Part shown: one piece after another, positions 1-17,985 of the stretch
How positions within the stretch are numbered: the stretch's first letter is position 1
How the letters are laid out: every line of letters starts with the position of its first letter
NCBI GenBank assembly: GCA_024693715.1
Contig: JAILKS010000023.1
Location: forward strand, 1 to 36,464
Source: Treponema sp.
GTDB taxonomy: Bacteria; Spirochaetota; Spirochaetia; Treponematales; Treponemataceae
Direction of reading: 5' to 3'
DNA: 36,464 bases
Program-made: the position numbers and the translations under genes
The notes under the pieces: model-generated
Databases searched by the model: none
What the model was told of the DNA's origin: nothing
Seen by the model: only the letters and a program-made list of their open reading frames with translations

Positions 1-1242
1 GTAATTGTCATCTTTTTAGACAGAGCAATTTCTTCTTTCTATCCATATATAATTGAACAATTTCCAGAGCTCGAAAAATCTTTCTCTGGTTTTACATATT
101 ATCCAAATACTTTAAGCACAGGTATATACACTTCTTTTGGTTATCCTAGTATGGTTGGAGGGTATGAATATACTCAACAAAATATTAATAAACGTCCGGA
201 TGAATTACTAAAAGATAAACATAATGAAGCAATGTTAGTTATGCCTACCCTTTTTGCAGATGGCGGTTATGATGTAACTTTTGTAAATCCATCCTATGCA
301 AATTATAAATATTCTAAGACAGCTTCATTTTTTGATGATTATCCTTATATCAACGGTATTGATACAAAAGGCACTCTTTCTAAAATCTACATGAAAGAAA
401 AAAATATTGATTATAACAACATAATGGATTCCATTTGTAAAAAACAAATTGTTAACTTTGTTGTTATAGAAGGCATGTATCCTTTATTACGAGATATTTT
501 TCAAAAAACTGTAAGAGATGATTCTGTTGATAAAAGTGCTTTTGTTGATAATTTCTCTGATTTATATTATTTAAAAGAGCTTTCTGAATTTAATAATGAA
601 AATCCGACATTCACTTTTATTGGAAATGAAACGACACATGAACCGACAAGTCTTGAAGCTCCCGCTTATGAAATACCCGGAGTATTTAAAACCGGTTCAA
701 CAGGTCCATACAAAGCATTAAATTCAAAGGATGGAATGGAATATCAGGTAAATGCAGGCGCAATTGTTCAGCTTGGAAAATATTTTGATTATCTGCAGGA
801 AATTGGTGTTTACGATAACAGCAGAATTATTGTTGTCTCTGATCATGGATATTTTGATTTTATTTCTACATTCAGTAATTTCCGTAATCCAACAATTCCA
901 GCAAGCTTTAATCCTTTGCTTCTTGTAAAAGATTTTAATGAACAAGGTAAAATTAAAACTGATTATCAATTAATGACAAATGCAGATACACTTTTTCTTG
1001 CAAAACAAGATCTTAATCTTTCTAATGTAAATCCATTTACACAAAAGGAATTTACAACCGAAAAAGATCCTGTTTATGTATGGGGAGCAAATAATGGGGA
1101 ATCAAGTGTAGCTAACATCAAAAATAAAACTCAATTTACACTGACTACAGGATACAAAGTTAAAGATAATCTTTTCGAACCAAAAAACTGGGAAGAAATT
1201 ACCTATAAAGAATATTTAAAAGAAACTCAAGGAGATAAATAA
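1..1242 (+). CDS. LTA-synthase/sulfatase-like phosphatase-superfamily protein, 5' partial
   Basis: The reading frame is open from the first base of the window, so the annotated Met at 151 is internal and the true start and any membrane domain lie upstream. The visible ~413 residues are the extracytoplasmic catalytic part of an alkaline-phosphatase/sulfatase-fold enzyme. It has a NETTHEP segment near 618-660, typical of the substrate pocket of this group, and an SDHG metal-binding motif near 838-850, followed by a region that in family members holds further metal ligands. Known relatives include lipoteichoic acid synthase and phosphoethanolamine or phosphoglycerol transferases, so a transfer of a glycerophosphate-like group on the outer face of the membrane is plausible. 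It overlaps the next gene, a CDP-glycerol glycerophosphotransferase homologue, by one base (stop TAA, start ATG), which supports a shared operon and a teichoic-acid-like role. The exact substrate cannot be told. Confidence 0.8.
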   Translation, partial: VIVIFLDRAISSFYPYIIEQFPELEKSFSGFTYYPNTLSTGIYTSFGYPSMVGGYEYTQQNINKRPDELLKDKHNEAMLVMPTLFADGGYDVTFVNPSYANYKYSKTASFFDDYPYINGIDTKGTLSKIYMKEKNIDYNNIMDSICKKQIVNFVVIEGMYPLLRDIFQKTVRDDSVDKSAFVDNFSDLYYLKELSEFNNENPTFTFIGNETTHEPTSLEAPAYEIPGVFKTGSTGPYKALNSKDGMEYQVNAGAIVQLGKYFDYLQEIGVYDNSRIIVVSDHGYFDFISTFSNFRNPTIPASFNPLLLVKDFNEQGKIKTDYQLMTNADTLFLAKQDLNLSNVNPFTQKEFTTEKDPVYVWGANNGESSVANIKNKTQFTLTTGYKVKDNLFEPKNWEEITYKEYLKETQGDK

Positions 1243-2486
1243 TGAATACATTTCTTTACATTGATCCCGGCACGGGTTCAATGCTTTTTTCTATTATTAT
1301 TGCAGCCGTTGCAACTATTTCGTTTGGAGCAAGAGCACTTTGGATAAAGCTTAGAGTTGTTTTTTCCGGTAAAAAAGCGGGTGAAATTAAAACTGATGCA
1401 GATAAAAAACCTTATATAATTTATAATGAAGGTAATCAATACTGGAATGTATTTAAGCCTGTATGTGATGAATTTGAAAAACGAAAGCTTGAGCTAATTT
1501 ATTACACATCCTCTAAAACTGATCCTGTTTTTGAACAGAATTATGAATATGTAAAGCCTGCCTTTATCGGTGAAGGAAACTCTGCGTTTGCAAAGCTTAA
1601 TATGATTAGTGCAGACTTTGTTCTTATGACAACACCGGGGCTTCACGTTTATCAGCTTAAAAGAAGTAAACGTGTAAAGCATTATTCTCATGTTCTTCAT
1701 ATGCCTAATGATGCAACAACTTATAGACTTTTTGGTCTGGACTTTTTTGATTCTGTTCTTTTGACAGGTGATTATCAGAAAGAAGATATTCAATTCCTTG
1801 AAGCTCAGCGGGGTATTAATCCAAAAGAACTGGTTACAGTAGGTTGTACTTACCTTGATGTTTATAAAGAAAACATTGCAAAGATTCCGAATGAAGAAAA
1901 TCATCCGTTTACAGTTCTTGTTTCGCCAAGCTGGGGCGACGTTGGTATTTTAAAAAAGTATGGTGAAAAGCTGCTTGATCCTCTTTCACAGACTTGCTGG
2001 AGAATTATTATACGCCCTCATCCACAGTCAAAAAAATCAGAAGCAGATATGCTTGCAAAACTCGAAGAACGCTATAAGGATAATAAGAATATTGAATGGG
2101 ATTACGAGCGTCAGAATATATTCAGTCTTAAAAAAGCAGATGTTATGATTTCTGATTTCTCCGGTATTATTTTTGATTATACCTTCCTTTGCGATAAGCC
2201 TGTTATGTATGTAAAATCAAATATGGATTTGCGTCCTTATGATGCATACGATCTTGGCGAAAAAGAATTGTGGCAGTATTCTGCATTAAAGACATTTGGA
2301 ACTGAACTTCAGGAAGAACAGTTTGCAAACATCAAAGAAGTAATTCAATCTATGAGCGATTCAAAAGAGCTTGAAGCAGCACGTCACGAAGCAAAAGCAA
2401 CTGCCTGGATGCATGAAGGTCAGGCCGGTAAAAACATTGCAGATTATATGATTGCAACTGTAGAAAAGCTTAATAAGGCTGAATAG
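1242..2486 (+). CDS. CDP-glycerol glycerophosphotransferase-like protein (TagB/TagF family)
   Basis: The 414-residue protein begins with a short segment containing DPGTGSML and one membrane helix (about residues 10-35). A cytosolic GT-B-like domain follows. The hallmark segments of the CDP-glycerol glycerophosphotransferase family are visible: RPHPQS around residue 256, and MISDFSGIIFDY near residue 302 followed by KPVMYV. Family members transfer glycerol phosphate (or ribitol phosphate) from a CDP donor to a growing polymer at the membrane. It overlaps the upstream LTA-synthase-like gene by one base and is 9 bases from the downstream LicC-like gene, so the three are probably cotranscribed. 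True teichoic acids are not expected in a spirochete, so the acceptor is more likely a glycolipid or surface glycan; that is inference. Confidence 0.8.
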   Translation: MNTFLYIDPGTGSMLFSIIIAAVATISFGARALWIKLRVVFSGKKAGEIKTDADKKPYIIYNEGNQYWNVFKPVCDEFEKRKLELIYYTSSKTDPVFEQNYEYVKPAFIGEGNSAFAKLNMISADFVLMTTPGLHVYQLKRSKRVKHYSHVLHMPNDATTYRLFGLDFFDSVLLTGDYQKEDIQFLEAQRGINPKELVTVGCTYLDVYKENIAKIPNEENHPFTVLVSPSWGDVGILKKYGEKLLDPLSQTCWRIIIRPHPQSKKSEADMLAKLEERYKDNKNIEWDYERQNIFSLKKADVMISDFSGIIFDYTFLCDKPVMYVKSNMDLRPYDAYDLGEKELWQYSALKTFGTELQEEQFANIKEVIQSMSDSKELEAARHEAKATAWMHEGQAGKNIADYMIATVEKLNKAE

Positions 2487-2495
2487 GAATTATAT

Positions 2496-3386
2496 ATGCT
2501 TACAGAAAAACAGTTTGATGTACTTTCTCTCATGGCCGAAAATCAGGATAAAAAAATCTCACAAAGAGAAATGTCTAAATCAACCGGTTATTCTTTAGGA
2601 ACAATTAATTCCATCATCACAAATCTTGAAGAGCTTGGTTTCATTGCAGATAAAAAACTTCTTCCAAAAGCAATAGATGAGCTCGAGGCTTATCGTGTAA
2701 AACGTATGATTTTTGTTGCAGCTGGGGTAGGGGTAAGAATGCTGCCAATCACTCTTAATACTCCAAAGCCTCTTGTTCGAATTAAAGGCGTAAGAATTAT
2801 TGATACAATGATAGATGCCGCCATCGAAGCCGGTATAGAAGAAATCTATATTGTCCGAGGCTACCTTTCTGAACAGTTTGATCAGCTTTTGTATAAGTAT
2901 CCTTTTATAAAGTTTATTGAAAATCCTGAATATAACGAAGGAAACAACATCTGCTCTCTTCTTTATGCGGCAGACCTGCTGGAAAATTCTTATATCTGTG
3001 AGGCAGACATTTTCTTAAAAAATAAATCTCTCATTCGTAAATATCAATATAAGTCTAACTATTGCGGCATTAAATGTGAACAGACAGATGACTGGTGTCT
3101 TTCTGAAGCTAAAGGAATAATAACAGGCGTTACTGTCGGCGGTACAAACGGCTACAGAATGCTTGGAATAAGTTACTGGAATAAAAAAGACGGTACTAAG
3201 CTTGCAGAATGCATTAAGAAAGCTTATAAAATGCCTGGCGGTAAAGAACGCTACTGGGATTCTGTTCCGCTTACATTATTTTCAGATGAATTTGAACTTA
3301 CAATCCGTAAATGCGAATTCAGTGATTTTGAAGAAATTGATACCCTTTCTGAACTTAAAAAAGTCGATAGTGTTTATAATTTATAA
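2496..3386 (+). CDS. licC: Winged-helix/LicC-type cytidylyltransferase fusion
   Basis: The 296-residue protein has two parts. Residues 1-65 form a MarR/ArsR-like winged helix (ISQREMSKSTGYSLGTIN is the recognition helix region). Residues 70-296 are a nucleotidyltransferase resembling LicC, the CTP:phosphocholine cytidylyltransferase. The glycine-rich nucleotide loop AAGVGVRMLPIT and the PKPL lysine follow directly, then EADIFL (metal site region), TDDW, GISYW and RYWDS, all typical of LicC or the related PntC domain that activates 2-aminoethylphosphonate. The expected reaction is CTP plus phosphocholine (or an aminophosphonate) to the CDP/CMP-linked head group and pyrophosphate. It follows the CDP-glycerol enzyme by 9 bases. 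HTH-NTase fusions of this kind are known in firmicutes. The choice between phosphocholine and aminoethylphosphonate is open. Confidence 0.75.
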   Translation: MLTEKQFDVLSLMAENQDKKISQREMSKSTGYSLGTINSIITNLEELGFIADKKLLPKAIDELEAYRVKRMIFVAAGVGVRMLPITLNTPKPLVRIKGVRIIDTMIDAAIEAGIEEIYIVRGYLSEQFDQLLYKYPFIKFIENPEYNEGNNICSLLYAADLLENSYICEADIFLKNKSLIRKYQYKSNYCGIKCEQTDDWCLSEAKGIITGVTVGGTNGYRMLGISYWNKKDGTKLAECIKKAYKMPGGKERYWDSVPLTLFSDEFELTIRKCEFSDFEEIDTLSELKKVDSVYNL

Positions 3387-4142
3387 TAATGAATACAAAT
3401 ATTCATTCTCTTTAATTCTCGGGTAGATTTTATTCAACGCTCTGTCCAGCATTGCTTCATCGTCAATTTCTGTCCAGGCATAATATTCAATCTTGCGAAC
3501 ATAAACAGGCTCATTACCGGAAGTAGAAATACGTTTAAGGGCACCTTCATAATCAAGCTTTGCAAGACGTTCTCTGTTCTGGTCATAATAGGCGCACATT
3601 TTAGAAAGTGCATTTTTAGAAACCTTAGTAATTCCTACAAGTTCACCGGCAGGGTCTGGTATTATTGTTTTATCCTTGCTTACCTCTGTAAGGCGGTTTT
3701 TATCATCTGCGCCAAGATAAACTTCATCATGGCTGTTAGACTTTCCGGAAGCAAGAATTACGTTATCGCGTTCATCTGCATTTAAAACCTTAAGGCCTAT
3801 TTTGTCGTAAATTAAATCGCTTTCCAGAAGAAGGCATGTATCGTCAATGAATGGAGCGCAAACTTCAAGAGTACCCATGCTGCTTGTGTTCATATAATTA
3901 TCGTTTCTGACAGTTTTTATCTGAGGATATTTTTTTGCAAGGTTATCGTACCATTCAGAACAGTGGCCGGTTCCAATAATTATTTTTTCAATCCCGGCTT
4001 CAATGAGCTTTTGTACAGATAATTCCACCATTGGAATCCCTTCAATTTCTATAAAACCCTTTGGCATTTCTGTGGTACGTCCGCCAAAGCGAGAACCAAG
4101 TCCACCTGCCATAATAACTGCCTGTTTAATCATATTTAACAT
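3381..4142 (-). CDS. Nucleotidyltransferase of the sugar/choline/aminophosphonate cytidylyltransferase type
   Basis: The 253-residue protein opens with the nucleotide-binding signature MAGGLGSRFGGRTTEMPKGF. The G-rich loop and PKG lysine are clear. LLESDLIYD near residue 105 supplies an acidic metal-site residue, and YAWTEIDDEAMLDRA near residue 222 a conserved C-terminal motif. The fold is that of nucleoside triphosphate transferases, and this subtype is often found in phosphocholine or phosphonate surface-decoration clusters, so a CTP-dependent head-group activation is likely. The substrate is not proved. A second Met nine bases further in (start at 4133) is an equally good start, because no ribosome binding site precedes either; an A/T-rich -10-like TATAAA sits just before the first Met. 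It ends tail to tail with licC, overlapping by six bases, and is divergent from the ABC transporter. Confidence 0.7.
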   Translation of the reverse strand: MLNMIKQAVIMAGGLGSRFGGRTTEMPKGFIEIEGIPMVELSVQKLIEAGIEKIIIGTGHCSEWYDNLAKKYPQIKTVRNDNYMNTSSMGTLEVCAPFIDDTCLLLESDLIYDKIGLKVLNADERDNVILASGKSNSHDEVYLGADDKNRLTEVSKDKTIIPDPAGELVGITKVSKNALSKMCAYYDQNRERLAKLDYEGALKRISTSGNEPVYVRKIEYYAWTEIDDEAMLDRALNKIYPRIKENEYLYSLL

Positions 4143-4190
4143 TTTATAGTTATTTTTTCATAAAGTAAATATAAAAATCACGGAATTTTG

Positions 4191-4290
4191 TTCACTTTTA
4201 GTTGTTCAGCATTAGTTTTTGAACATTATTGATTGATTTTTTCACTTATATGTTCTAAAATTGTATATGAAGTGTGATTTTTTGAACATT
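4191..4290. repeat. Imperfect direct repeats in the divergent promoter region (possible operator)
   Basis: Between the divergent nucleotidyltransferase and ABC transporter genes the sequence TTTTTGAACATT occurs twice (4216-4227 and 4279-4290), and TTCACTT occurs before each copy (4191 and 4241). Further GTTC/GAAC cores lie between them. The second copy ends 12 bases before the ABC-transporter start codon, overlapping the region just upstream of its ribosome binding site. This looks like a duplicated binding site for a regulator or an old tandem duplication; no regulator can be named. Confidence 0.45.
4233..4261 (+). promoter_or_regulatory. Candidate promoter of the ABC transporter operon
   Basis: TTGATT at 4233-4238 and TAAAAT at 4256-4261 are 17 bases apart and lie about 40 bases upstream of the ABC ATPase start codon. 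The match is moderate in a very AT-rich region, so the call is tentative. The two TTTTTGAACATT copies flank it. Confidence 0.35.
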
Positions 4291-4302
4291 TAGGAGTGAT
4301 AA

Positions 4303-5052
4303 ATGCTTGAAATTAAAAATATTGTTAAAGCTTATAACGACGTAACAATCCTTAATGACATTTCTTTATCAATTAATAATTCAGAGATTGTTTCAATTTT
4401 AGGACCTTCAGGCAGCGGTAAAACTACTCTTCTTAATATAATTCTTGGAATTACAAATCCGGATTCAGGAAACATTATTTTTGATGATAATGATATTACA
4501 AAGACTCCGATGGAAAACCGCGGATTTAATATTGTTTTTCAGGACTATGCACTTTTTCCAAATCTTAACGCATATAAAAATATTACATACGGTTTAAGAA
4601 ACAAAGCAAATATTTCTACACAGGAAGAAGTAGATACACTTATTGATCTTCTTGAGCTTCGTGAACATCTTGATAAAAAAATTGATAATCTTTCCGGCGG
4701 TCAAAAGCAGCGTGTTGCACTTGCAAGAACTCTTGTAATGAAGCCGAAAATCCTTTTGCTTGACGAACCTCTTTCGGCGCTTGATGGTGTAATTAAGGAA
4801 TCTATCAAACAGAAAATTGTAACAGTTGCAAAAGAGTTTAAGCTTACAACTATTATTGTAACTCATGATCCGGAAGAAGCACTTACAATCAGTGACAGAG
4901 TAATTATTCTTAACAAAGGAAAAATCGAACAGTTTGATACACCGGACAATATTATTAATAATCCGCAAAGTGATTTTGTAAAAGATTTTATAATCCAGCA
5001 GCTTGCCATTAAAAAGAATAATATCTTTAAATTATTCGGCGGGGAGAAATAA
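4303..5052 (+). CDS. ABC transporter ATP-binding protein (iron/aminophosphonate importer type)
   Basis: The 249-residue protein is a complete nucleotide-binding subunit. It shows Walker A GPSGSGKTT (residues 34-42), a Q-loop at VFQDY, the signature LSGGQKQR, Walker B ILLLDEP followed by the D-loop SALD, and the switch histidine in VTHD. It drives import by hydrolysing ATP on the inner face of the membrane. It lacks the C-terminal TOBE extension common in the larger (about 350-residue) FbpC/PotA-type ATPases. The start has an AGGAG ribosome binding site. The permease gene begins three bases after its stop codon, and the binding protein follows, so all three subunits of one importer are present in order. 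Confidence 0.93.
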   Translation: MLEIKNIVKAYNDVTILNDISLSINNSEIVSILGPSGSGKTTLLNIILGITNPDSGNIIFDDNDITKTPMENRGFNIVFQDYALFPNLNAYKNITYGLRNKANISTQEEVDTLIDLLELREHLDKKIDNLSGGQKQRVALARTLVMKPKILLLDEPLSALDGVIKESIKQKIVTVAKEFKLTTIIVTHDPEEALTISDRVIILNKGKIEQFDTPDNIINNPQSDFVKDFIIQQLAIKKNNIFKLFGGEK

Positions 5053-5055
5053 CTG

Positions 5056-6687
5056 ATGTTCAGTAGAATCAAAAACAAACAGATAAATACTGTATTTACT
5101 GTCGTATTATTGTTCTTTCTTCTTTTTACGATTTATCCGCTTTTAATTCTTTTTAAGAATGCTTTTACACAAGGAGCAGGCTCTAACGCTGTTTTTTCTT
5201 TCATAAACTTTAAGAATGTTTTTGTAAAAGGAAAATTCCTGCAGGCCTTCTGGAACAGTACAAAGGTCAGTTTTATAAGTGCAGTCATTACAACAATCCT
5301 TGCATTTATTCTGGCGTATACAGAAAATTTTACAAACATTTCCGTAAGACTTAAAAAGCTTTTAAGAACCCTTGCTGTTTTTCCTATGCTGCTTCCTACA
5401 ATTACATACGGTTTTGCAGTAATTTATTCTTTCGGTAAAAACGGCCTGATAACAAGATTATTTGGTTTTCAGTTGTTTGATTTTTACGGCTTTAACGGTC
5501 TTATTTTTTGTTATGTAATTTATACCCTGCCAATCTCATTTACACTTATACGAAACACAATGTCTTATATAGACAAGCGCTTTTTAATTGTCTGTCGTGT
5601 AATGGGAGATTCTTCCATAAAGAGCTTTTATACTGCAATTTTGCAGCCACTTTCAGGTACTCTTGCTGTATCTTTAGTACAAAGCTTTTTCCTTTCATTT
5701 ACAGACTTTGGTATTCCGGCATCTATCGGTGGAAGATACACAGTAATTGCAGAGCTTCTTTATAACACAATGCTCGGAAGTCTTCCGGATTTTCATCAGG
5801 GTTCTGTAATTGCATTGTTCATGCTGCTTCCTTCAGTTTTAAGTATTCTTTTATTAAATTATCTTCAGCGCTTTAATGTAAGATATAATAAAATATCTAA
5901 GATTGATTTACAGAAAAATGCATTACGCGATGTAATCTGGACAATTGTTTCTTTCTTTATTATCATCTGCATCCTCAGTGTATTTGTAATTGTTTTTGTT
6001 GCTCCGTTTGTAACTGAATGGCCTTATAACATGGGCTTTACCTTTAAGAATGTTCAGAATGTTTTTGCAGATAAGTCTCTTACAAGAGTATTCTCAAATT
6101 CTCTTGTTGCCGCTTTCTTTACTGCAACCTTTGGTACAGGCTTTGTTTATATTGCAGCCCTTGCAAGCGCAAGAAGTAAGCTTCATCCTTTTTTTTCAAA
6201 GGTAATTGCTTCTATGGCTCAAATTTCAAATGCTCTGCCTGGAATGGTTTTAGGTATTGCATTTTTGCTTGCCTTTAAGAAGACACCTCTTCATAACACA
6301 ATGGCAATAATCATTCTTTGTAATCTTGTCCATTTCTTTGCAACTCCATTCTTAATGATGAAGGGTGCTTTGGATAAAATGAATGATTCGTGGGAAAATA
6401 CAGCGCTTTTACTTGGAGATAACTGGATTAAAACAGTTGTAAGAATCATTACTCCAAATGCAATTGTAAGTCTTCTGGAAGTATTTGTTTATCTTTTTAT
6501 CAACGGACTTGTAACTGTAAGTGCAATAATTTTCCTTTGCGGGGCACGTACAATGGTTATTACAACAAAGATTCAGGAGCTTCAGCATTTTGCAAAGTTC
6601 AATGAAATCTTTATTCTTTCAATTTTGATTTTTATAACAAACCTCATAATGAAGACAATTAAAGGTATTGTTAATAAAAATAGATAA
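5056..6687 (+). CDS. ABC transporter permease, two fused MetI-like domains
   Basis: This 543-residue integral membrane protein is made of two successive permease domains, each of about six helices, giving roughly twelve membrane segments. Each half has a degenerate EAA loop that docks on the ATPase: one around residues 180-200 (VMGDSS then PLSG) and one around 455-475 (LLGDNW then TPNA). Fused permeases of this length are typical of iron(III) transporters (FbpB/AfuB) and of putative 2-aminoethylphosphonate transporters. The neighbouring cytidylyltransferases favour an organophosphorus ligand, but the sequence of the permease alone cannot decide it. It sits between the ATPase and the binding-protein genes in a compact operon. 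Confidence 0.9.
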   Translation: MFSRIKNKQINTVFTVVLLFFLLFTIYPLLILFKNAFTQGAGSNAVFSFINFKNVFVKGKFLQAFWNSTKVSFISAVITTILAFILAYTENFTNISVRLKKLLRTLAVFPMLLPTITYGFAVIYSFGKNGLITRLFGFQLFDFYGFNGLIFCYVIYTLPISFTLIRNTMSYIDKRFLIVCRVMGDSSIKSFYTAILQPLSGTLAVSLVQSFFLSFTDFGIPASIGGRYTVIAELLYNTMLGSLPDFHQGSVIALFMLLPSVLSILLLNYLQRFNVRYNKISKIDLQKNALRDVIWTIVSFFIIICILSVFVIVFVAPFVTEWPYNMGFTFKNVQNVFADKSLTRVFSNSLVAAFFTATFGTGFVYIAALASARSKLHPFFSKVIASMAQISNALPGMVLGIAFLLAFKKTPLHNTMAIIILCNLVHFFATPFLMMKGALDKMNDSWENTALLLGDNWIKTVVRIITPNAIVSLLEVFVYLFINGLVTVSAIIFLCGARTMVITTKIQELQHFAKFNEIFILSILIFITNLIMKTIKGIVNKNR

Positions 6688-6716
6688 GTTAATAAATATA
6701 TAGGAGAAATCTGAAA

Positions 6717-7703
6717 ATGAAAAAAATCTTTTCTTTAATGAGTCTTTCACTTTGTTTAGTGCTTGCGCTTTGTGCATTTGCAGGCTGTTCGAAAAAAACA
6801 AATGCTGAACGAACTGTAATCATTTATTCTAATGCCGATGATGAAGCTGTTGTCGCTATAAAAAAAGCACTTGATGCAAACGGATATGAAGGAAAATATA
6901 TTTTCCAGTCTTTTGGTACAAGTGAATTGGGCGGCAAACTTTTTGCCGAAGGTTCTGATATAGAAGCTGATCTTATTACAATGAGTTCTTTTTATATTGA
7001 AAGTGCACAGGCAATGAACAATATGTTCAAAAAACTTGAATTTTCTACAAATCAGGTTATTAAAACACCAGATTATTATACACCGCTTCTTGCAATTCAG
7101 GGTACGGTAATTGTAAACACAAAACTTCTTTCTGAAAACGGACTTAATAAGCCGCAAAGCATTAAAGATATTGGAAATGCTGAATACAAGGATTTAGTGA
7201 GTGTTGTTGATCCGATGGGAAGTACAACTGCATGGCTTATGGTTCAGGCTTTAATTGAAGAATATGGTGAAAGTGGAACAGAAGATATTCTTAAAGCAAT
7301 TTATAATAATGCTGGTCCTCATCTGGAACTTAGTGGTTCCGGTCCTATCAAGAAGATTCGCAGCGGTGAAGTTGCAGTCGGCTTTGGTCTGCGTCATCAG
7401 GCTGTGAGAGATAAAAAAAGCGGACTTCCTATTGATTACGTAGATCCGACAGAAGGAAACTTTGCTCTTACAGAATCTGTAGCAGTTATAAATAAAAAGA
7501 ACTATAATCCTCTTGCAATGGAAATTGCGGAATGCATCATCAAGAATGCCCGTGCAGATATTATAAAGGATTATCCGGTTGTTCTTTACGAGGGTGAAAC
7601 TGTAGATGCCGAAAACATTGCAGGTAACAGCAAAACTTTCAGTCAGACACTTACAACAGAACTTTTAAGGGAACATCAGGAACTTAGTGAAAGTTGCAAA
7701 TAA
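6717..7703 (+). CDS. ABC transporter substrate-binding lipoprotein (iron/2-aminoethylphosphonate type)
   Basis: The 328-residue protein has a lipoprotein signal: a basic start, a hydrophobic stretch and the lipobox FAGC with Cys24 as the lipid anchor. The mature part has the layout of class II periplasmic binding proteins for iron(III) and 2-aminoethylphosphonate. It begins with VIIYSNADDE, has a hinge-region segment TVIVNTKLL, and a late SGSGPIKKIRSGEVAVGFG segment followed by YVDPTEGNFA. It should capture the ligand in the periplasm and hand it to the fused permease. A ribosome binding site AGGAG precedes the start. A preference for aminophosphonate over iron is inferred from the adjacent nucleotidyltransferases and not shown by individual residues. 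Confidence 0.85.
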   Translation: MKKIFSLMSLSLCLVLALCAFAGCSKKTNAERTVIIYSNADDEAVVAIKKALDANGYEGKYIFQSFGTSELGGKLFAEGSDIEADLITMSSFYIESAQAMNNMFKKLEFSTNQVIKTPDYYTPLLAIQGTVIVNTKLLSENGLNKPQSIKDIGNAEYKDLVSVVDPMGSTTAWLMVQALIEEYGESGTEDILKAIYNNAGPHLELSGSGPIKKIRSGEVAVGFGLRHQAVRDKKSGLPIDYVDPTEGNFALTESVAVINKKNYNPLAMEIAECIIKNARADIIKDYPVVLYEGETVDAENIAGNSKTFSQTLTTELLREHQELSESCK

Positions 7704-7747: not shown

Positions 7748-8536
7748 ATGAATATAATTATTTTTGTAGCTGCCCATAAAAAATATCAGATGCCCCAGGA
7801 TTCAATTTACACTCCGCTTCATGTAGGGGCACAGGGGAAAGAGCAGATTCCAGGCTTTACTCCTGACAATACCGGAGACAATATTTCTTCTAAAAATCCA
7901 TATTATTGTGAGCTTACAGGACTTTACTGGGCATGGAAAAATTCAAAAGCAGATTATATCGGGCTATGTCATTACAGACGTTATTTTTCTGCAGCAAAGC
8001 ATATTCCTAAAACGGAAGAGGAAAAGTTCAAGGTTGTATTAAACAGCGGACAGGCAGAAAAGCTTCTTTCAACCGCCGATGTAATTCTTCCTAAAAAACG
8101 CAATTATTTTATAGAAACAATCTACAACCATTATAAACATACAATGTATATTGAACCTCTGGATATTACCGAACAAATAATTAAAGAAAAATATCCTGAA
8201 TATGTTTACGAATTTGAGCAGCTTAAGCATACTACAAAAATGCATGCCTTTAATATGTTCATAATGAAAAAAGAACTGCTCGACCGATATTGTACCTGGC
8301 TTTTTGATATTCTTGGTGAGGTAGAAAAACAGGTTGATACTTCTCAATATTCTGATTTTCATAAACGGTTTTTTGGGCGCATCAGCGAACGACTTTTAGA
8401 TGTATGGATTAAAACAAATAAAATACAATATGCAGAAATCCCGGTTATTGATATGCAGAATATAAACTGGGCAAATAAAATTAAATCATTTCTTGTTGCA
8501 AAATTCACGGGAAAACGTTACGAAAAAAGCTTTTAG
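7748..8536 (+). CDS. DUF4422 glycosyltransferase-like capsular/exopolysaccharide protein
   Basis: The 262-residue protein matches the DUF4422 family from start to end. The N-terminal AAHKKYQMP, the segment LTGLYWAWKN and GLCHYRRYF near residues 78-86 are characteristic, and the length is typical. Members lie in capsule, O-antigen and exopolysaccharide clusters and are regarded as glycosyltransferases acting at the cytoplasmic face; the donor is unknown. It is 8 bases upstream of glf, the UDP-galactofuranose supplier, so a role as a galactofuranosyl transferase or a partner of one is a reasonable guess. No signal peptide or membrane helix is seen. Confidence 0.85.
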   Translation: MNIIIFVAAHKKYQMPQDSIYTPLHVGAQGKEQIPGFTPDNTGDNISSKNPYYCELTGLYWAWKNSKADYIGLCHYRRYFSAAKHIPKTEEEKFKVVLNSGQAEKLLSTADVILPKKRNYFIETIYNHYKHTMYIEPLDITEQIIKEKYPEYVYEFEQLKHTTKMHAFNMFIMKKELLDRYCTWLFDILGEVEKQVDTSQYSDFHKRFFGRISERLLDVWIKTNKIQYAEIPVIDMQNINWANKIKSFLVAKFTGKRYEKSF

Positions 8537-8544
8537 GAAAAAAT

Positions 8545-9642
8545 ATGAAATATGATTATCTTATAGTAGGAGCAGGTTTATTTGGAGCGGTGTTTGCGCA
8601 TGAAGCATCACAGAAAGGAAAAAAATGTCTTGTGATAGATAAGCGTCCTCATATTGCCGGAAATATTTATACAGAAAACATTGAAGGAATTAATGTTCAT
8701 AAATACGGTGCTCACATTTTTCATACAAGCGACAAGCAGATCTGGGATTATATAAATCAGTTTGCTGATTTTAACCGTTACACAAACAGTCCGGTTGCAC
8801 GTTATAAAAACGAAGTATATAACCTGCCGTTTAACATGAATACTTTTAACAAGCTTTGGGGAGTTTTTACACCAGAGGAAGCAAAAGCAAAAATTGCTGA
8901 AGAGCTTTCTGATGTAAAAATTGATGAACCCAAGAATCTTGAAGAACAGGCAATCAAGCTTGTCGGAAAAACGATATACGAAAAACTTGTTAAAGGTTAT
9001 ACGGAAAAACAATGGGGCATGAAAGCAGATCAGCTTCCTCCTTTTATTATAAAAAGACTTCCTGTCCGTTTTACCTATGATAATAATTATTTTAATGATT
9101 CATATCAGGGCATCCCGATTGGCGGTTATACACAAATCATCGAAAAAATGCTTGCATACTGTGATGTAAAATTAAACTGTGATTTTTTTGAAAAACGTAG
9201 TGAACTTGAAGGTCTTGCACAAAAAATAATTTTTACAGGTCCAATCGACAAATATTATGATTATAAATTCGGTGAGCTCGAATACCGTTCAGTGCGTTTT
9301 GAAACAGAAGTGTTAGATACGGATAACTATCAGGGAAATGCAGTTGTAAATTATACAGAATATGAAGTTCCTTATACCCGTATTATTGAACATAAGCATT
9401 TTGAATTTGGAAATCAGCCAAAAACTGTAATAAGCCGTGAATATTCAGATAAGTGGACAACAGAAAAAGAGCCTTACTATCCTATCAATAATGAACGAAA
9501 CAACAGCCTTTATCAAAAATATGAAGAGCTTGCCTCAAAGGAAAAAAACATTATTTTTGGCGGCAGACTTGGACAATACAAGTATTATGATATGCATGTT
9601 GTAATTGCCGAAGCCTTAAAGCTTTGTGCTAAAGAATTATAA
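8545..9642 (+). CDS. glf: UDP-galactopyranose mutase
   Basis: The 365-residue flavoenzyme interconverts UDP-galactopyranose and UDP-galactofuranose in the cytosol. It has the FAD-binding VGAGLFGAVFAHE loop at residues 7-19, an acidic end of the second strand (VIDKRPHIAGN), the diagnostic YGAHIFHTS near residue 54, the active-site region TEKQWG near residue 152, and a C-terminal FGGRLGQYKYYDMH motif that contacts FAD. Length and motif order agree with bacterial Glf. Its presence indicates that galactofuranose is part of a surface glycan here. It is the last gene of the surface block and lies immediately downstream of the DUF4422 gene. Confidence 0.97.
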   Translation: MKYDYLIVGAGLFGAVFAHEASQKGKKCLVIDKRPHIAGNIYTENIEGINVHKYGAHIFHTSDKQIWDYINQFADFNRYTNSPVARYKNEVYNLPFNMNTFNKLWGVFTPEEAKAKIAEELSDVKIDEPKNLEEQAIKLVGKTIYEKLVKGYTEKQWGMKADQLPPFIIKRLPVRFTYDNNYFNDSYQGIPIGGYTQIIEKMLAYCDVKLNCDFFEKRSELEGLAQKIIFTGPIDKYYDYKFGELEYRSVRFETEVLDTDNYQGNAVVNYTEYEVPYTRIIEHKHFEFGNQPKTVISREYSDKWTTEKEPYYPINNERNNSLYQKYEELASKEKNIIFGGRLGQYKYYDMHVVIAEALKLCAKEL

Positions 9643-10591: not shown

Positions 10592-11581
10592 ATGGATAGT
10601 TCAAGTGCAATTTTATTCAATTATTCTAAAGCATCAGGCCTTCTGGGAAAAGCATTTATCGGTAAACGAACAGGCCTTCTTTTTGAAAAAAAATCTCTTT
10701 CTGAATTATGGACTTTGTTGTTTAAATCTCAATCACCTGTAGTTTCTGAACGCTTTCTTGCACAGCAGATTGAACTGGAAGCGCAAAAGCGTTTTATAAA
10801 TCAATATATTGGTTTTTTACGAAAGTGGGATAATCCTCCTGAAATTCTTGTAGATCAGCTTAAGCTTGTTCAGCTTAGAAATATAAAGCTCATTTATTCT
10901 GCGCTAAGTAAAAAGGAAGAAGAACTTCCGTACATTGTAGATCTTGCTGAATTTTCATCGCTTGATGTTTCTGCCTGGCCGAATCTTGAATTGATAACGA
11001 AAAATTCAGAATTCAGCTGGTGCAGGGAAGTTGCAGATATTCATAATCAGCGTAAAATTGAATATAAGATGGATCTTCAGTTTCTTCAAAGCTGGTGGAA
11101 TCAGATTCAGAAATATCATGGTGAAGAAAAATCTGTTCAGAGAAAATTTTTTATTGAAGAATTTTCGTTAAAAAACATCATCTGGGCGTTACGGCTTTCG
11201 GTTTATTATGATTATCCGAAAGATGAGATAATCAAAAATCTTCTTTATGTTACAGAACGTGCAGATTTAAAGGATCCTGTTGCTGCTCCTGTTTTTGAGA
11301 TTCTTGACAAACGGATTGATAAATGGAGTGACTGGGAAAAGTGGAAATATGCAGGATATCTTAATCAGCCGCAAAAGGATGGTTCCTGGAAAATAGATCC
11401 TGTGTGGTTTGAAAAACAATATTCCATTGTAAAAGAAAGACATGCGTTAAGAATTTTTCATGAACAGTCAATGTCGAATGCTGCTTTTGTAGCATGGTTT
11501 AAAATAAAAAGTTTTGAATTAAACTGTATACGAAGAGCTGTTGAAAGTATAAGATTAGGTGTAGCAAATGAAATTAGTTGA
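10592..11581 (+). CDS. atpC: V-type ATP synthase/ATPase subunit C (V0D/AC39 family)
   Basis: The 329-residue, all-helical, Trp-rich soluble protein fits subunit C, the socket between the central rotor shaft (D/F) and the membrane K ring. Features are the N-terminal YSKASGLLGKAF, the middle LQSWWNQIQ and the FSLKNIIWALRLSVYY segment, with the repeated helical triplets of the family. GAGAGGAT precedes the ATG. It overlaps the start of subunit I by 14 bases. It lies before I and K, whereas in Enterococcus and Thermus the C gene lies after K and E, so the operon order differs from the textbook one. Confidence 0.85.
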   Translation: MDSSSAILFNYSKASGLLGKAFIGKRTGLLFEKKSLSELWTLLFKSQSPVVSERFLAQQIELEAQKRFINQYIGFLRKWDNPPEILVDQLKLVQLRNIKLIYSALSKKEEELPYIVDLAEFSSLDVSAWPNLELITKNSEFSWCREVADIHNQRKIEYKMDLQFLQSWWNQIQKYHGEEKSVQRKFFIEEFSLKNIIWALRLSVYYDYPKDEIIKNLLYVTERADLKDPVAAPVFEILDKRIDKWSDWEKWKYAGYLNQPQKDGSWKIDPVWFEKQYSIVKERHALRIFHEQSMSNAAFVAWFKIKSFELNCIRRAVESIRLGVANEIS

Positions 11582-12938
11582 ACTTCTGGTATTAAAACAG
11601 GATATTGACCGCGTTTTAAAATACATCGGCGATAAAGGATGCTTTCAGTTTTATTCTAAGCTTCCTGATTCTATCGAAGATGATAGTCTTGAGAATTTGT
11701 CTGATGAGGAACTGATTGCACAAAAAATTGAAAAGATTAAAAGTTCACTGGAATGTACAGAATATGTTTACAGAATCCTTTTATGGATACCAAAGGATAT
11801 TTGTGATTCTTCTTCTGAAGAGATGAGTGCTATAACCGAAAACAGAATCGCTGTCCGTGTTTTTGAACCTTTTGAAATTCCGGATGTAATCAATGGAAAA
11901 GAAAAAGTTCCGGTAAAAATTCATCATAATAAATTTGTAAGAAGCTTTGAACGGATGGTCTTCAGCTTTGGTTCTCCTCTTTATGGCACGGTAGATCCGA
12001 CTCCTTTTGTTGCAGTATTTTTTACACTTCTTTTTGGAATGATGTTTGGTGACTTGGGGCAGGGACTTGTTTTTCTGCTGATTGGAATCCTTATGTCAAA
12101 GAAAGTTATTAAAGCAGGCGGATGGAATAAATTTTCTGCAATTTTTATTGCAATCGGAATCAGTTCATCATTAATGGGACTTTTGACCGGAGAATTTTTT
12201 TCTAACGAAACTCTGCTTGAACCTTTTGCAAAATGGGTAACAGGATTTTTCGGTAAACCTCACGCTCCGATTTTAAAAGTTATGTATACTCCCGGTGGTT
12301 CACTAAAAGCGATGTTCGGACTTTTCGGGGTAGCAGTTGCATTTGGTTTTATAATCAATTCAATTGGTTTTATAATTAACATCATAAATAATTTCCGTCT
12401 TCGAAAGATTGATAAAGCCTTGTTCGGTAAGAATGGACTTTCTGGCGCAGTTTTCTTCTGGTATGTGATTGCGCTTGTCCTTCGTATTGTAATTTTTAAA
12501 CATACTCCCAGAATTTATGATTTTATTATTCTTGGAGTTTCTTTATTTTTTGCCGCTTTTGCAGAGCCCTTTGAAAATCTTATCAATAAAAAGCATCCTG
12601 TTTTAGAAAATGGCTTTGGAACATATTTAATTTCAAGTGTTGTTGAAGTAATTGAAGTTTTTTCCGGGATGCTTTCAAATACGATAAGCTTTGTCCGTGT
12701 CGGAGCTTTTGCGCTTTCGCATGCAGTCCTTGATTATATGATTGTAATCCTTACAGAACTTGTCGGCGGAGAGCTTACAATACCGGGTATATTAATTCTT
12801 ATTCTTGGAAATGCAATTATTATTCTTCTGGAAGGAATGATAGTTGCAATTCAGTCAATAAGATTACAATATTATGAATTCTTTTCTAAATTTTTCAATG
12901 AGACTGGAAAGGAATTCAAGCCATATAAATGGAGGTAA
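11568..12938 (+). CDS. atpI: V-type ATP synthase/ATPase subunit I (membrane stator), short form
   Basis: Subunit I holds the two ion half-channels and anchors the peripheral stalks. The C-terminal membrane domain (about residues 145-456) is intact: the signature SPLYGTVDPTPFVAVFFTLL leads into GMMFGDLGQG, and a helix with FVRVGAFALSHA near residue 370 carries the essential arginine region. The protein has only 456 residues, against about 600-660 in other bacteria. The N-terminal cytoplasmic domain is about 130 residues instead of about 330, with the starting alpha/beta lobe and the closing segment (ILLWIPKD, then VPVKIHHNKF) joined directly. The long coiled-coil arm between them is missing. 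The coding frame is uninterrupted. Confidence 0.93.
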   Translation: MKLVELLVLKQDIDRVLKYIGDKGCFQFYSKLPDSIEDDSLENLSDEELIAQKIEKIKSSLECTEYVYRILLWIPKDICDSSSEEMSAITENRIAVRVFEPFEIPDVINGKEKVPVKIHHNKFVRSFERMVFSFGSPLYGTVDPTPFVAVFFTLLFGMMFGDLGQGLVFLLIGILMSKKVIKAGGWNKFSAIFIAIGISSSLMGLLTGEFFSNETLLEPFAKWVTGFFGKPHAPILKVMYTPGGSLKAMFGLFGVAVAFGFIINSIGFIINIINNFRLRKIDKALFGKNGLSGAVFFWYVIALVLRIVIFKHTPRIYDFIILGVSLFFAAFAEPFENLINKKHPVLENGFGTYLISSVVEVIEVFSGMLSNTISFVRVGAFALSHAVLDYMIVILTELVGGELTIPGILILILGNAIIILLEGMIVAIQSIRLQYYEFFSKFFNETGKEFKPYKWR

Positions 12939-12942
12939 TGAG

Positions 12943-13254
12943 ATGAAAAGAATTTTAAGTATTCTTGCATTTTTATTTTTATGCGGATTTTCATTGTTCG
13001 CTCAGGAGGCTGCTGAATCGGTAAAGGCAACTGGTGCCGATGTAATGTCTGCAGTAAAATATCTTTCTGCTGCAATTGCTGTCGGACTTGCGTGTCTTGC
13101 AGGTGGAATTGCAGTTGGAAAAATCGGTGCTGCTGCAATGGGAGCAATGAGCGAAAATCCGGAGCTTTCAAGTAAAGGTATCCCTTATGTAGGACTTGCA
13201 GAAGGTATATGTCTGTGGGGTGCTCTTATCGCCGTTTTAATTTTGGTTTTGTAG
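12943..13254 (+). CDS. atpK: V-type ATPase proteolipid subunit K with signal sequence
   Basis: This is the rotor-ring subunit that carries H+ or Na+ across the inner membrane. The 103-residue product begins with a cleavable-looking signal (residues 1-20, ending LFAQ). Two helices follow: AVGLACLAGGIAVGKIG (about 44-68) and VGLAEGICLWGALIAV (about 82-103), with Glu87 as the ion-binding carboxylate in the second. Two-helix, signal-bearing proteolipids occur in Thermus and some archaeal ATPases; the Enterococcus type has four helices. I chose the ATG at 12943, which has GGAGGT upstream; the in-frame ATG at 12874 would lie inside subunit I. Ion specificity cannot be told from what I see. Confidence 0.93.
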   Translation: MKRILSILAFLFLCGFSLFAQEAAESVKATGADVMSAVKYLSAAIAVGLACLAGGIAVGKIGAAAMGAMSENPELSSKGIPYVGLAEGICLWGALIAVLILVL

Positions 13255-13255
13255 T

Positions 13256-13579
13256 ATGGATTTTTACACGATAGGTAGTCGTGAAATTGTTCTTGCTTTT
13301 AAATTAACCGGCATAGATGGAACTGTTGCAGAAACAAGGGATGAAGTTTTAGAAGCGTTCAATAGTTTTACAAAGCGTTCCGATTTGCAGGATGAACAGA
13401 AACCTCGCATTTTGATTTTAACGGAAGATGCGGCCGCCTTAATTGAAAAGGAAGAATATGAATGGCAGAAGACAGGAAAATATCCTCTTGTGGTAGAGGT
13501 CCCGGGATTAAAGGGGCATGCAGAAGGCAGAAAATCTTTGTCTGAAGCAATCCGTCAGGCTGTAGGAATAAGTGTTTAG
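13256..13579 (+). CDS. atpF: V-type ATPase subunit F
   Basis: The 107-residue protein is the small central-rotor subunit that binds D. It has the alternating beta-alpha pattern of the family: YTIGSREIVLAFKLTGIDG at the start, ILILTEDAA near residues 58-66 and the KYPLVVEVPG motif near residues 79-88. The start codon is directly after the K stop codon. It precedes E and the catalytic subunits. Confidence 0.9.
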   Translation: MDFYTIGSREIVLAFKLTGIDGTVAETRDEVLEAFNSFTKRSDLQDEQKPRILILTEDAAALIEKEEYEWQKTGKYPLVVEVPGLKGHAEGRKSLSEAIRQAVGISV

Positions 13580-13581
13580 AT

Positions 13582-14223
13582 ATGAAAGAGATTCGTTCAA
13601 TACAGATAATTGATGATGAAATAAAACAGCAGGCTCAAAAAGAAGCGCAGAAAATTCTGGAACAGGCAGATTTACAGAGCAGGGAAATTTCTGAATCTTA
13701 CAGTGTAAAGCTTGAAGAGGCGCTCAAAGAAAAAAAAGATTATTACAATCATAAAGCAGCTGTTTATCAGAATAATCTAGATGCAAAAATCCCTCTGGAA
13801 AAGAAACGCTTCAACGCTTTGTTTATAAAAAATAGTCTTGTAGATGAAATCAATGATTTTTTAGAATCGATGACAGAAGAAAAGAGACTTCAGATTGTAA
13901 TAAAGTCATTGAATGCTAAAAAGGAAATTTTTTCCGATAGGGAACTTAATGTGTTTGTATATGGCTTTGATGAGGGACTTGTTCTTAATGAATTAAAAAA
14001 GCTTTTTCAGAAGCAGATTGTTTCCTGTACAAAGGTTTTATTTAATCAGAAGCTTTATGAACAGGATATAGGGTTGAAGTTTAACGAGGGATTTATAATT
14101 GAAACGACAGATACACTTATTCTTGGACGGTTTACACTTTGTGAAATAATTCAAAATCTTATTGATAAAAAAGCATATAAGCTTTCAGAGATTTTGTTTG
14201 GAGAAGGAGCCTTCGATGCTTAA
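13582..14223 (+). CDS. atpE: V-type ATPase subunit E (peripheral stalk)
   Basis: The 213-residue protein starts with a long charged helix (residues 10-85, e.g. [13 protein letters not shown]) that would form the stalk coiled coil with the G/H subunit, followed by a mixed alpha/beta globular C-terminal part (residues 95-213). This is the E-subunit layout. It starts two bases after subunit F and overlaps the A-subunit gene by eight bases. E subunits are poorly conserved; the assignment draws on architecture and position. Confidence 0.8.
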
Positions 14224-15970
14224 AGGAATAATTACAAGAATTTCAGGACCTATTGTTTATGCTCAGGGACTCGATGGCGCCGGCCTTTATGATGTAGTTG
14301 ATGTCGGTAATAAAAAACTGATCGGTGAAATTGTAAGGCAGAATTCAAATCATTGTACGATTCAGGTTTATGAAGATGATACAGGTATGAAAATTAATGA
14401 AGAGGTCGTATGTCAGAGTCGTCCGCTTTCCCTTCATCTTGGACCTGGACTTGTTGGTAATATTTATGATGGAATTCAGCGTCCTTTACAGAAAATGTAT
14501 GAAGCTTCCGGAGCTTTTTTGCTTCCTGGTGAGAGAGCAGAACCTCTTGATTTAAATAAAAAATGGCACTTTGAAGCATCAGCTGAAATAAACGAAAACT
14601 CAGAAATAAAATGTGGAATGATTATCGGAACTGTAAAAGAAACTGAATCAATAACTCAGAAAATAATGGTTCCTCCGTTAATAAAAGGTAAGAAGCTGAA
14701 GCTTTTTAAAGGAAGCGGTGAATATACAGTAGATGAAGTTATCGCTGTGACAGAGCTTGATGAAGAAATAAAGCTTGCACATTACTGGCCTGTAAGAAAG
14801 CCTCGTCCGTATTTACAAAAGCTTTCTGTTTCACAACCGTTGATTACCGGTCAGCGGGTTATAGATGTATTTTTCCCTTTGAGTAAGGGTGGAACTGCCG
14901 CAATCCCAGGAGGCTTTGGAACCGGAAAGACAATGACACAGCATGCGATTGCAAAATGGTGTGATGCTGATTTGATTGTATATATTGGCTGCGGAGAACG
15001 TGGAAATGAAATGACAGATGTTCTTACAGAATTTCCGAATTTAATTGACCCGAGAACAAATCGGTCAATTATGGAAAGAACAATTTTAATTGCAAATACT
15101 TCCAATATGCCGGTTGCTGCCCGTGAAGTTTCACTTTATTCAGGAATTACACTTGCAGAATACTTCCGTGACATGGGAATGACAGTTGCAATTATGGCAG
15201 ATTCTACTTCACGCTGGGCAGAAGCATTGCGTGAACTTTCAGGACGCATGGAAGAAATGCCTGCAGAAGAAGGATTCCCAGCTTATCTTCCGACAAGACT
15301 TGCATCATTTTACGAAAGAGCGGGCCGTGTAACTAATCTGAATGAAACGGAAGGTTCTGTAAGTATTATTGGTGCTGTTTCTCCTCCGGGCGGTGATTTT
15401 TCGGAGCCGGTTACTCAGCATACAAAACGTTTTATCCGTTGTTTCTGGGCACTCGATCGTGAACTGGCAAACGCAAGGCATTATCCTGCAATCGGATGGA
15501 TAGAATCTTATTCGGAATATGCAGATGAAGTAAAGGAATGGTGGGAAACAAAAAATCCTATGTGGTCAAAACTTCGTCAGCGTGCACTTGATTTATTAAA
15601 AGAAGATGAAAAGCTTCAGCAGATTGCAAGACTGATTGGTTCAGACGCTTTGCCTGCTCCTCAAAGACTTTTGTTAAAGTCAGCAGAAATGATTAAAAAC
15701 GGTTTCTTGCAGCAGAATGCTTTTGACGATATAGACAAATACTGCTCAATTGAAAAACAGATTTTGATTCTTCAACTGATAATGGAATATTTTGACCGGG
15801 CAAGTGCTCTTGTAAAAAGAGGAATGCTTTTATCAAAAGTAACCGGTTTAAGTGTCTGTGATGAAATCATAAAAATCAAGATGCAGTATGGAAATGATGA
15901 AATTGATAAAATTCACCAGGTTGCCGTCAGACTGGACGAACAGCTTTCTGAATTGGAGAGGTCTGAATGA
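14216..15970 (+). CDS. atpA: V-type ATP synthase/ATPase catalytic subunit A
   Basis: The catalytic subunit of the V1 hexamer, 584 residues. The N-terminal beta barrel starts [15 protein letters not shown]. The P-loop GGFGTGKT lies at about residue 232, the catalytic-glutamate segment CGERGNEM near residue 261, and the Walker B region [17 protein letters not shown] near residue 322; the A-subunit-specific bulge region lies between barrel and P-loop. The chosen ATG at 14216 has GGAGAAGGAG upstream; an in-frame ATG at 14162 lies inside subunit E. The stop overlaps the B-subunit start by four bases (ATGA), typical of translational coupling between A and B. Confidence 0.97.
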
Positions 15971-17337: not shown

Positions 17338-17347
17338 CGGGAATTAA

Positions 17348-17968: not shown

Positions 17969-17985
17969 TATTATAAAATCTACGT

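Follow-up and report, generated by a model that had tools for sequence, protein, structure and literature searches.

The DNA analysed here is a stretch of 36,464 nucleotides from Treponema sp. (assembly GCA_024693715.1, contig JAILKS010000023.1; below, the window) and makes up contig C62 in a draft genome of 2.63 Mb (G000). Near its left end, the genes of an ABC importer are divergent from a gene for a stand-alone PntC domain, and a gene for a fusion of a helix-turn-helix (HTH) domain with a LicC-like nucleotidyltransferase (LicCf) lies beyond that. PntC is the CMP-AEP synthetase, the cytidylyltransferase of 2-aminoethylphosphonate (AEP). We consider it probable that this locus is an AEP import-and-activate cassette, a branch of the phosphonyl tailoring pathway that is fed by import. 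The open reading frames (ORFs) of the importer (ATPase, fused 543-residue permease and binding lipoprotein), of the divergent nucleotidyltransferase and of the LicC-like fusion were confirmed where the original prediction, made from the letters alone, had placed them. The features of the locus are:

151..1242, plus strand: sulfatase/LTA-synthase-like protein (PF00884), 3' part; the start lies before the window (915 aa in the sister locus L004)
1242..2486, plus strand: glycerophosphotransferase-like protein (PF04464), candidate transferase
2496..3386, plus strand: HTH-LicC fusion (LicCf), 296 aa (PF13412 + PF00483 + PF12804), candidate regulator or regulator-enzyme of phosphonate genes
3381..4142, minus strand: stand-alone PntC domain, predicted AEP cytidylyltransferase, 253 aa, without the fused transaminase of its relatives; closest solved structure 6pd1
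4189..4225, no strand: operator-like site TGTTCA-N25-TGAACA, between PntC and importer
4251..4288, no strand: second operator-like site TGTTCT-N26-TGAACA, between PntC and importer
4303..5052, plus strand: ABC ATPase, PhnT2-like (TIGR03265), 249 aa (the PhnT2 model has 353 positions)
5056..6687, plus strand: fused permease, PhnU2-like (TIGR03262), 543 aa
6717..7703, plus strand: binding lipoprotein, phnS2-like (TIGR03261), 328 aa, with AfuA-type phosphate-site residues S169, T171, S206 and G207
7748..8536, plus strand: DUF4422 protein (PF14393), glycan-cluster neighbour
8545..9642, plus strand: UDP-galactopyranose mutase, above the TIGR00031 cut-off

The locus was compared with a set of 146 Treponema genomes (G labels) and with public loci (L labels), and the Fisher tests throughout ignore relatedness. 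The gene order of the window was repeated in the sister genome G034 (locus L004), with 84–94% protein identity for the eight genes compared and 83% for the glycerophosphotransferase-like one, so the order is not due to chance. Two small ORFs between the binding protein and DUF4422 in the sister (L004 3394–4257) are not in the window.

The closest solved structure to the protein of 3381..4142 was PntC of T. denticola (Tde-PntC, 6pd1; 293.6 bits, E 1.2e-86), and the second was LicC (1jyk) with 43 bits. According to the available text of PMC6697681, replacement of R15, K25 or K153 of Tde-PntC by Ala leaves less than 10% activity, and E104 and E196 sit at the AEP amine. All five are kept in the window PntC as R18, K28, K156, E107 and E199, and these catalytic and AEP-contact residues, together with Asp106, were identical in the window, the sister and all 25 fused relatives taken into the comparison. 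Moreover, 112 of the 115 columns invariant among the fused proteins were unchanged in both stand-alone PntC. Comparison of the window with the sister, whose PntC is 94% identical, gave a nonsynonymous divergence (dN) of 0.039 for PntC, the lowest of eight genes, against a synonymous divergence (dS) of 1.12, which meant purifying selection, so PntC is likely in use. Judged from its sequence, this protein is a PntC domain of the AEP type with predicted activity.

In most other Treponema, PntC is fused to AEP transaminase (AEPT) and adjoins the genes of phosphoenolpyruvate mutase (Ppm) and phosphonopyruvate decarboxylase (Ppd). The public loci with a PntC domain (28, with L016 and L017 being one region of a single metagenome-assembled genome (MAG) counted twice) had a long frame of 533–663 aa in 27 cases (L030 truncated by the contig end), and a frame of 250 aa was found only in L004. 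Among the genomes, the short PntC frames of G016 and G023 lie at contig ends, and that of G076 has 472 aa. For a PntC tree, 40 motif-caught PntC starts among L004–L031 and L126–L154 were joined with ten proteins, which were necessarily short because the search was length-limited, and removal of identical rows left 37 rows (27 Treponema and 10 others). The stand-alone pair fell inside the 27-row Treponema set (support 100/97) on a stem of 0.56 changes per column, and the inner forks were weaker (81/97 and 87/87).

The Ppm motif EDKxxxxxNS was present in an ORF of 24 of the 28 PntC loci, and the four without it were L004 and three in which PntC lies at most 1.3 kb from a contig end. In L005, a ppm-ppd-pntC/aept row stands between the sulfatase-like gene and DUF4422-Glf, which is the place held in the window by LicCf, PntC and the importer. 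Over the 146 genomes, PntC was found in 48 and Ppm in 49 (46 above the cut-off), with both in 43. The five genomes with PntC and no Ppm match were the window genome, the sister, G024, G037 and G099, and the last three were not counted as true PntC-only genomes because the contig ends just upstream of PntC. Family searches of the window assembly found no Ppm, no Ppd above the cut-off and no AEPT; three sub-cut-off Ppd matches (best E 1.2e-9) were dismissed, being equally present in 13 of 14 controls. The sister had no Ppm match and no AEPT genome-wide, and its locus had no Ppd, a family that was not searched in the rest of that genome. No remnants of ppm, ppd or aept were found in the window (best E 0.31). 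In the available part of PMC6697681, Pnt surface-phosphonate clusters are recognised via ppm. Ppm together with Ppd and AEPT was not found in the window cluster, and since Ppm was looked for and not found, we did not class the locus as a Pnt biosynthesis cluster.

Genes for the breakdown of AEP were not found either. An AEPT/PhnW-like protein was found in neither the window genome nor the sister, PhnJ in none of 10 genomes searched, and PhnX above the cut-off in none of 12 genomes searched, both sets including these two genomes. The TIGR01422 (PhnX) matches were all below the cut-off and occurred in 12 of 12 genomes and 14 of 14 controls, which is superfamily background, so we rejected the use of AEP as food. 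The earlier statement that catabolic genes are lacking thus extends to the whole assembly as far as the searched families go (AEPT/PhnW-like, PhnJ, and PhnX above the cut-off; PhnA was not searched). Since Ppm and the transaminase were found in neither genome, AEP would have to be imported, and since PhnJ and PhnX (above the cut-off) are also missing, it is unlikely to serve as food. As most relatives have a PntC-transaminase fusion encoded next to ppm and ppd, the direction was likely a loss of AEP synthesis, in which the lineage kept activation and import replaced synthesis.

The importer had been predicted to be of the iron/AEP type, and the profile search gave the AEP-transporter families as the best NCBIfam models, all below their equivalog cut-offs: PhnT2 (TIGR03265) for the ATPase with 296.2 bits (cut-off 457.7), PhnU2 (TIGR03262) for the permease with 325.7 bits (593.25), and phnS2 (TIGR03261) for the binding protein with 100.3 bits (392.75), the last being its sole NCBIfam family at 1e-5. 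Since these cut-offs were not reached, we did not class the importer as a PhnS2/T2/U2 member. The binding protein has a lipobox-like FAGC with Cys24, as read by eye, and was found (E ≤1e-30) in 12 of the 146 genomes. PntC was present in 11 of these 12 importer genomes versus 37 of the 134 without the importer (Fisher one-sided 1.9e-5). The importer adjoins PntC in the window genome and the sister, adjoins the ppm operon in G056, G065, G081, G085 (where the set is split by a contig break) and G136, stands apart from the ppm operon in G055 and G135, and in G092, G099 and G115 occupies short contigs that carry no pnt genes. In G081 the importer and ppm are direct divergent neighbours, and LicCf is on a different contig. 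A second, distant importer set of the same type (27–45% identity) also had phnS2, PhnT2 and PhnU2 as top models, below the cut-off where scanned (L117 and L123), and in G108 and G142 it is followed by LicCf-Ppm-Ppd-PntC/AEPT in one row. In G138 (L117 155–4471), LicCf occurs with this distant importer; the locus lacks ppm, and neither PntC nor AEPT was matched anywhere in that genome, which is possibly a third kind of arrangement. One relative has a pyridoxal-kinase-like ORF, identified by eye, between the permease and the binding protein (L014 798–1625/L078).

By sequence, the solved proteins nearest to the binding protein were the phosphate-compound binders 8x1a, 4r72 and 6wce, ahead of an iron binder, and its structure model (mean pLDDT 91.5) matched AfuA, VcA0625, FbpA and P5PA alike. 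The phosphate site of AfuA is formed by S148, G149, T150 and G185, and its essential sugar triad is H205/D206/E229 (available parts of PMC4546632 and PMC8427247). At an identity of about 18–20% to AfuA and P5PA, the four site residues of AfuA align with S169, T170, T171 and G207, and the neighbouring S184 with S206; over 59 rows S206 and G207 were invariant, and S169 and T171 were conserved in at least 90%. The triad is incomplete (H227, Q228 and L251), so sugar-phosphate import was rejected. For iron, we take the ligands of FbpA to be His9, Glu57 and the pair Tyr195-Tyr196. The first two are not kept in the alignment to 1xvx, where Asp41 and Ser90 stand instead; the alignment stops before the Tyr pair, and no Tyr-Tyr was seen by eye in residues 195–235. 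Iron import was rejected because two alignable ligands are missing, though the fold scores leave iron and phosphate binders unseparated. The original prediction had named two results that would speak against it, namely a binding protein closest to iron binders with conserved Tyr/His ligands, and two nucleotidyltransferases matching sugar-phosphate enzymes. Instead, phosphate-compound binders came first and the alignable iron ligands were absent, and PntC and LicC were matched ahead of sugar-phosphate enzymes. The site residues of the binding protein suggest phosphate or phosphonate as the ligand, and the putative cargo of the importer is AEP.

LicCf had LicC (1jyk) as its closest solved structure with 109.2 bits, followed by 6pd1 with 41.8 bits. 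It was found (at least 49% identity) in 15 of the 146 genomes, 13 of which had PntC and 11 Ppm; the importer was present in 8 of these 15 versus 4 of the 131 genomes without LicCf. The Asp105 and Asp192 positions of the LicC pocket are Glu169 and Asp255 in LicCf, and Asp171 is also kept. Glu at the Asp105 position of Spn-LicC, counted from the 1jyk alignment, is as in PntC, and was found in all 15 LicCf-type rows and in three more distant ones (L102–L104); five short LicC rows had Asp and six long ones (658–689 aa) had Cys. The window LicCf has Val80 (2733–2741) at the Ser/Thr of the motif GXG(T/S)R, which the sister keeps, and its catalysis may be weakened by this residue.

The operator-like motif was first noticed in six LicCf-positive loci and then tested. 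Across 21 chosen loci (343 kb) there were 18 perfect box pairs spaced 8–45 apart; the spacing was exactly 25 in 11 of them, and by their coordinates all 11 N25 pairs lay upstream of pnt, importer or LicCf genes. In trials with a Markov model of the intergenic stretch between PntC and the importer, a perfect N25 site arose with a frequency of 0.0002, and whole-window shuffles with one mismatch allowed gave a site in 16 of 100, so one site alone carries little weight and it is the repeated occurrence that counts as evidence. A search of the window genome for TGTTCA-N24..26-TGAACA gave three matches; one has N25, and the remaining two (C47:17540 and C66:1202) may mark further regulon members. The looser TGTTCN form had 5 forward and 14 reverse matches there versus 4 and 4 for the control. 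A promoter scan around the sites gave matches no more frequent than in shuffles.

Presence of the site was then compared with presence of LicCf, using the 49 genomes with a Ppm match minus three with cut genes (G002, G017 and G055). Eight of the 11 genomes with Ppm and LicCf had a perfect site (gap 23–25) within about 1.1 kb upstream of ppm; of the remaining three, G007 had a site with one mismatch, and G108 and G142 had a perfect site before the transporter-LicCf-ppm row. The LicCf-negative ppm loci had a site in 1 of 35, which gave Fisher p 5e-6 for 8 of 11 and 9e-10 for 11 of 11. The stretches read were longer in the LicCf-positive set than in the LicCf-negative one (about 1 kb or up to about 2.3 kb upstream of ppm, shorter at contig ends in G101, G016 and G137), ppm in the negative set often follows another gene, and the sites of G065/G085 and G108/G142 are near-copies, which means fewer independent cases. 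With the motif-discovery loci excluded, all 7 further LicCf-positive ppm genomes had the site. The sole exception, G011 (L188 586), has a perfect N25 site upstream of ppm, and LicCf was not found in its genome. Among 28 longer loci, perfect sites (gap 23–26) were found in L004, L007 (from G011), L012 (far from ppm), L013, L014 and L021. Since sites occur in 11 of 11 LicCf-positive versus 1 of 35 negative genomes, LicCf is likely a regulator or regulator-enzyme of phosphonate genes rather than a choline enzyme, and the simplest reading of the site distribution is that its HTH binds TGTTCA-N25-TGAACA. It may act as a regulator, as a second AEP enzyme, or as both. The original prediction, which had left the head group broader and referred to activation of phosphocholine by LicC, is narrowed to AEP in the first point and revised in the second.

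Candidates for the transfer step lie in the neighbourhood. A PF04464 glycerophosphotransferase-like protein was found in 21 of the 28 PntC loci. Contig C19 of the window genome carries LicD, an IspD-like cytidylyltransferase, an epimerase/dehydratase, another PF04464 protein, a capsule-synthesis protein and GT8, and its end (L166 1–873) is, by eye, the first part of the sulfatase-like gene, the rest of which is window 1–1242. As this gene is split over two contigs, C19, and LicD with it, is probably the immediate upstream neighbour of the window. The sister has two LicD genes upstream on the PntC contig, one of them 81% identical to the C19 LicD. LicD was absent from 4 of 9 genomes tested, so the PF04464 protein adjoining PntC is an equal candidate transferase. 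Further along the window, 10592–18735 holds an operon judged by eye to be a V/A-type ATPase set.

Taken together, no AEP-synthesis genes were found, yet the predicted AEP-activating PntC is kept, with an importer divergent from it across two operator-like sites, so the cell likely takes AEP from its surroundings. The binding lipoprotein would capture AEP, the PhnT2/PhnU2-like ATPase and permease would import it, and the stand-alone PntC is predicted from its conserved residues to join it to CMP. An enzyme encoded among the glycan genes nearby, either LicD or a glycerophosphotransferase-like one, could then move AEP onto a surface polymer, and LicCf, to judge from the site distribution, likely binds the sites between PntC and the importer and fits expression to the AEP supply. 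The earlier idea that a zwitterionic head group is imported for surface decoration and not as a phosphorus source is supported, with a putative cargo, by an assembly without genes for making or degrading AEP, the AEP-type PntC under purifying selection, the co-occurrence of importer and PntC, and the shared operator-like sites. Several findings weigh against an AEP cassette. All three importer proteins score under the curated AEP-transporter cut-offs, the fold scores tie phosphate and iron binders, and the long stem (0.56) of the stand-alone PntC pair could indicate an altered substrate. A Ppm match was found in 8 of the 12 importer genomes (p 0.015), so the importer also occurs where synthesis is present and is more than a substitute. 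The importer shares a row with LicCf, its possible real partner, in several genomes; LicD is missing from 4 of 9 genomes; and the window draft is 93.25% complete with 4.97% contamination, the sister about 96% complete.

The pairing with LicCf leads to one rival, in which the importer supplies phosphocholine or another phosphorylated amine to LicCf, which makes the CDP head group, and PntC is a second enzyme fed otherwise. LicC is indeed the top solved match of LicCf, the two genes co-occur (8/15 vs 4/131), and they stand in one row in G056, G065, G085 and G136, as does the distant importer with LicCf in G108, G142 and G138. However, LicCf has the PntC-like Glu at the Asp105 position, most LicCf genomes have PntC (13/15) and Ppm (11/15), LicCf lies beside ppm without an importer match in G007, G053 and G063, and the importer of G081 is divergent from ppm with no LicCf at that spot. 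Choline kinase PF01633 was found in 0 of 9 genomes, although the sensitivity of this model for LicA kinase is not established, and PntC would be left without a substrate. We regard this explanation as unlikely. A shift of the stand-alone PntC to an endogenous substrate such as phosphoethanolamine, with the importer serving something else, would account for the long stem; phosphoethanolamine is near AEP in size and is not reported for PntC in the available text of PMC6697681. Because both Glu residues that contact AEP are kept, as are 112 of the 115 invariant columns, and importer and PntC have a common intergenic region with its sites, this seems quite improbable.

That Ppm, Ppd and AEPT are present but were missed in both drafts, with the importer only supplementing synthesis, would agree with the incomplete assemblies (93% and about 96%) and with Ppm in 8 of 12 importer genomes. 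But relatives hold the three genes in the cluster with PntC, here two separate assemblies show a continuous cluster that lacks them, and the PntC gene itself has no AEPT part, which elsewhere belongs to one polypeptide with PntC, so we find it very improbable. The least probable of the rivals, to which we give hardly any weight, is a cargo of iron, sugar phosphate or pyridoxal phosphate: the presumed FbpA ligands His9 and Glu57 align with Asp41 and Ser90, the Tyr pair falls beyond the alignment with no Tyr-Tyr near residues 195–235, H205/D206/E229 of AfuA become H227/Q228/L251, and 11 of 12 importer genomes have PntC.

If AEP is imported for the surface, as we consider probable, counts of ppm underestimate the number of phosphonate-decorated bacteria, and AEP can pass between gut microbes. 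The operator-like motif and the HTH-cytidylyltransferase fusion also make a candidate regulator of surface phosphonates. More tentatively, and with some doubt on our side, the lineage may have given up making C-P bonds and become an obligate AEP scavenger for its surface coat, with a dedicated importer, a stand-alone PntC, and a cytidylyltransferase turned transcription factor that would sense AEP at TGTTCA-N25-TGAACA. Rumen ciliates and AEP-making Treponema are candidate sources for such a lineage: water buffalo omasum is the label given to the sister MAG, AEP in rumen protozoa was reported in 1959 (reference 1 of PMC6697681, as given there), and the available part of a review (PMC4659874) notes that bacteria and feed contain it too. 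Among the literature titles and abstract openings searched, we found no description of AEP import for surface use, and we do not claim its absence in print.

Compared with the Pnt pathway of Tde-PntC, as described in the available text of PMC6697681, the locus has the same PntC domain, catalytic and AEP-contact residues and glycan-transferase neighbours; it differs in that Ppm, Ppd and AEPT were not found by our searches, PntC is unfused, and an importer and operator-like sites adjoin. The text of that paper lacks the words transporter, uptake and exogenous. With the AEP importers AepXVW, AepSTU and PhnSTUV, which support growth with AEP as a source of P or N (PMC8316502, available part), the importer shares the PF13343 binding-protein type and the best NCBIfam models; unlike them, it has scores below the cut-offs and stands in a genome without AEP degradation genes by the searches made. 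AfuA and P5PA (PMC4546632 and PMC8427247, available parts) are the nearest solved binding proteins by sequence and fold and share the Ser/Thr/Gly phosphate site, but the window protein has an incomplete sugar triad and only about 18–20% identity. The Lic phosphocholine pathway consists of choline import, kinase, LicC and LicD (PMC6697681, available part). The logic of that choline salvage, head-group import, CTP activation and glycan transfer, would be the same here, and LicD is nearby; in contrast, AEP would need no kinase (PF01633 was not found in 9 genomes), and uptake would run through an ABC system with a binding protein instead of a choline permease. Finally, the NadR-type regulators, which we take to be HTH-nucleotidyltransferases able to read the state of their pathway, are built from domains different from those of LicCf, whose regulatory role is suggested by the sites, but LicCf could read its pathway in the same manner.

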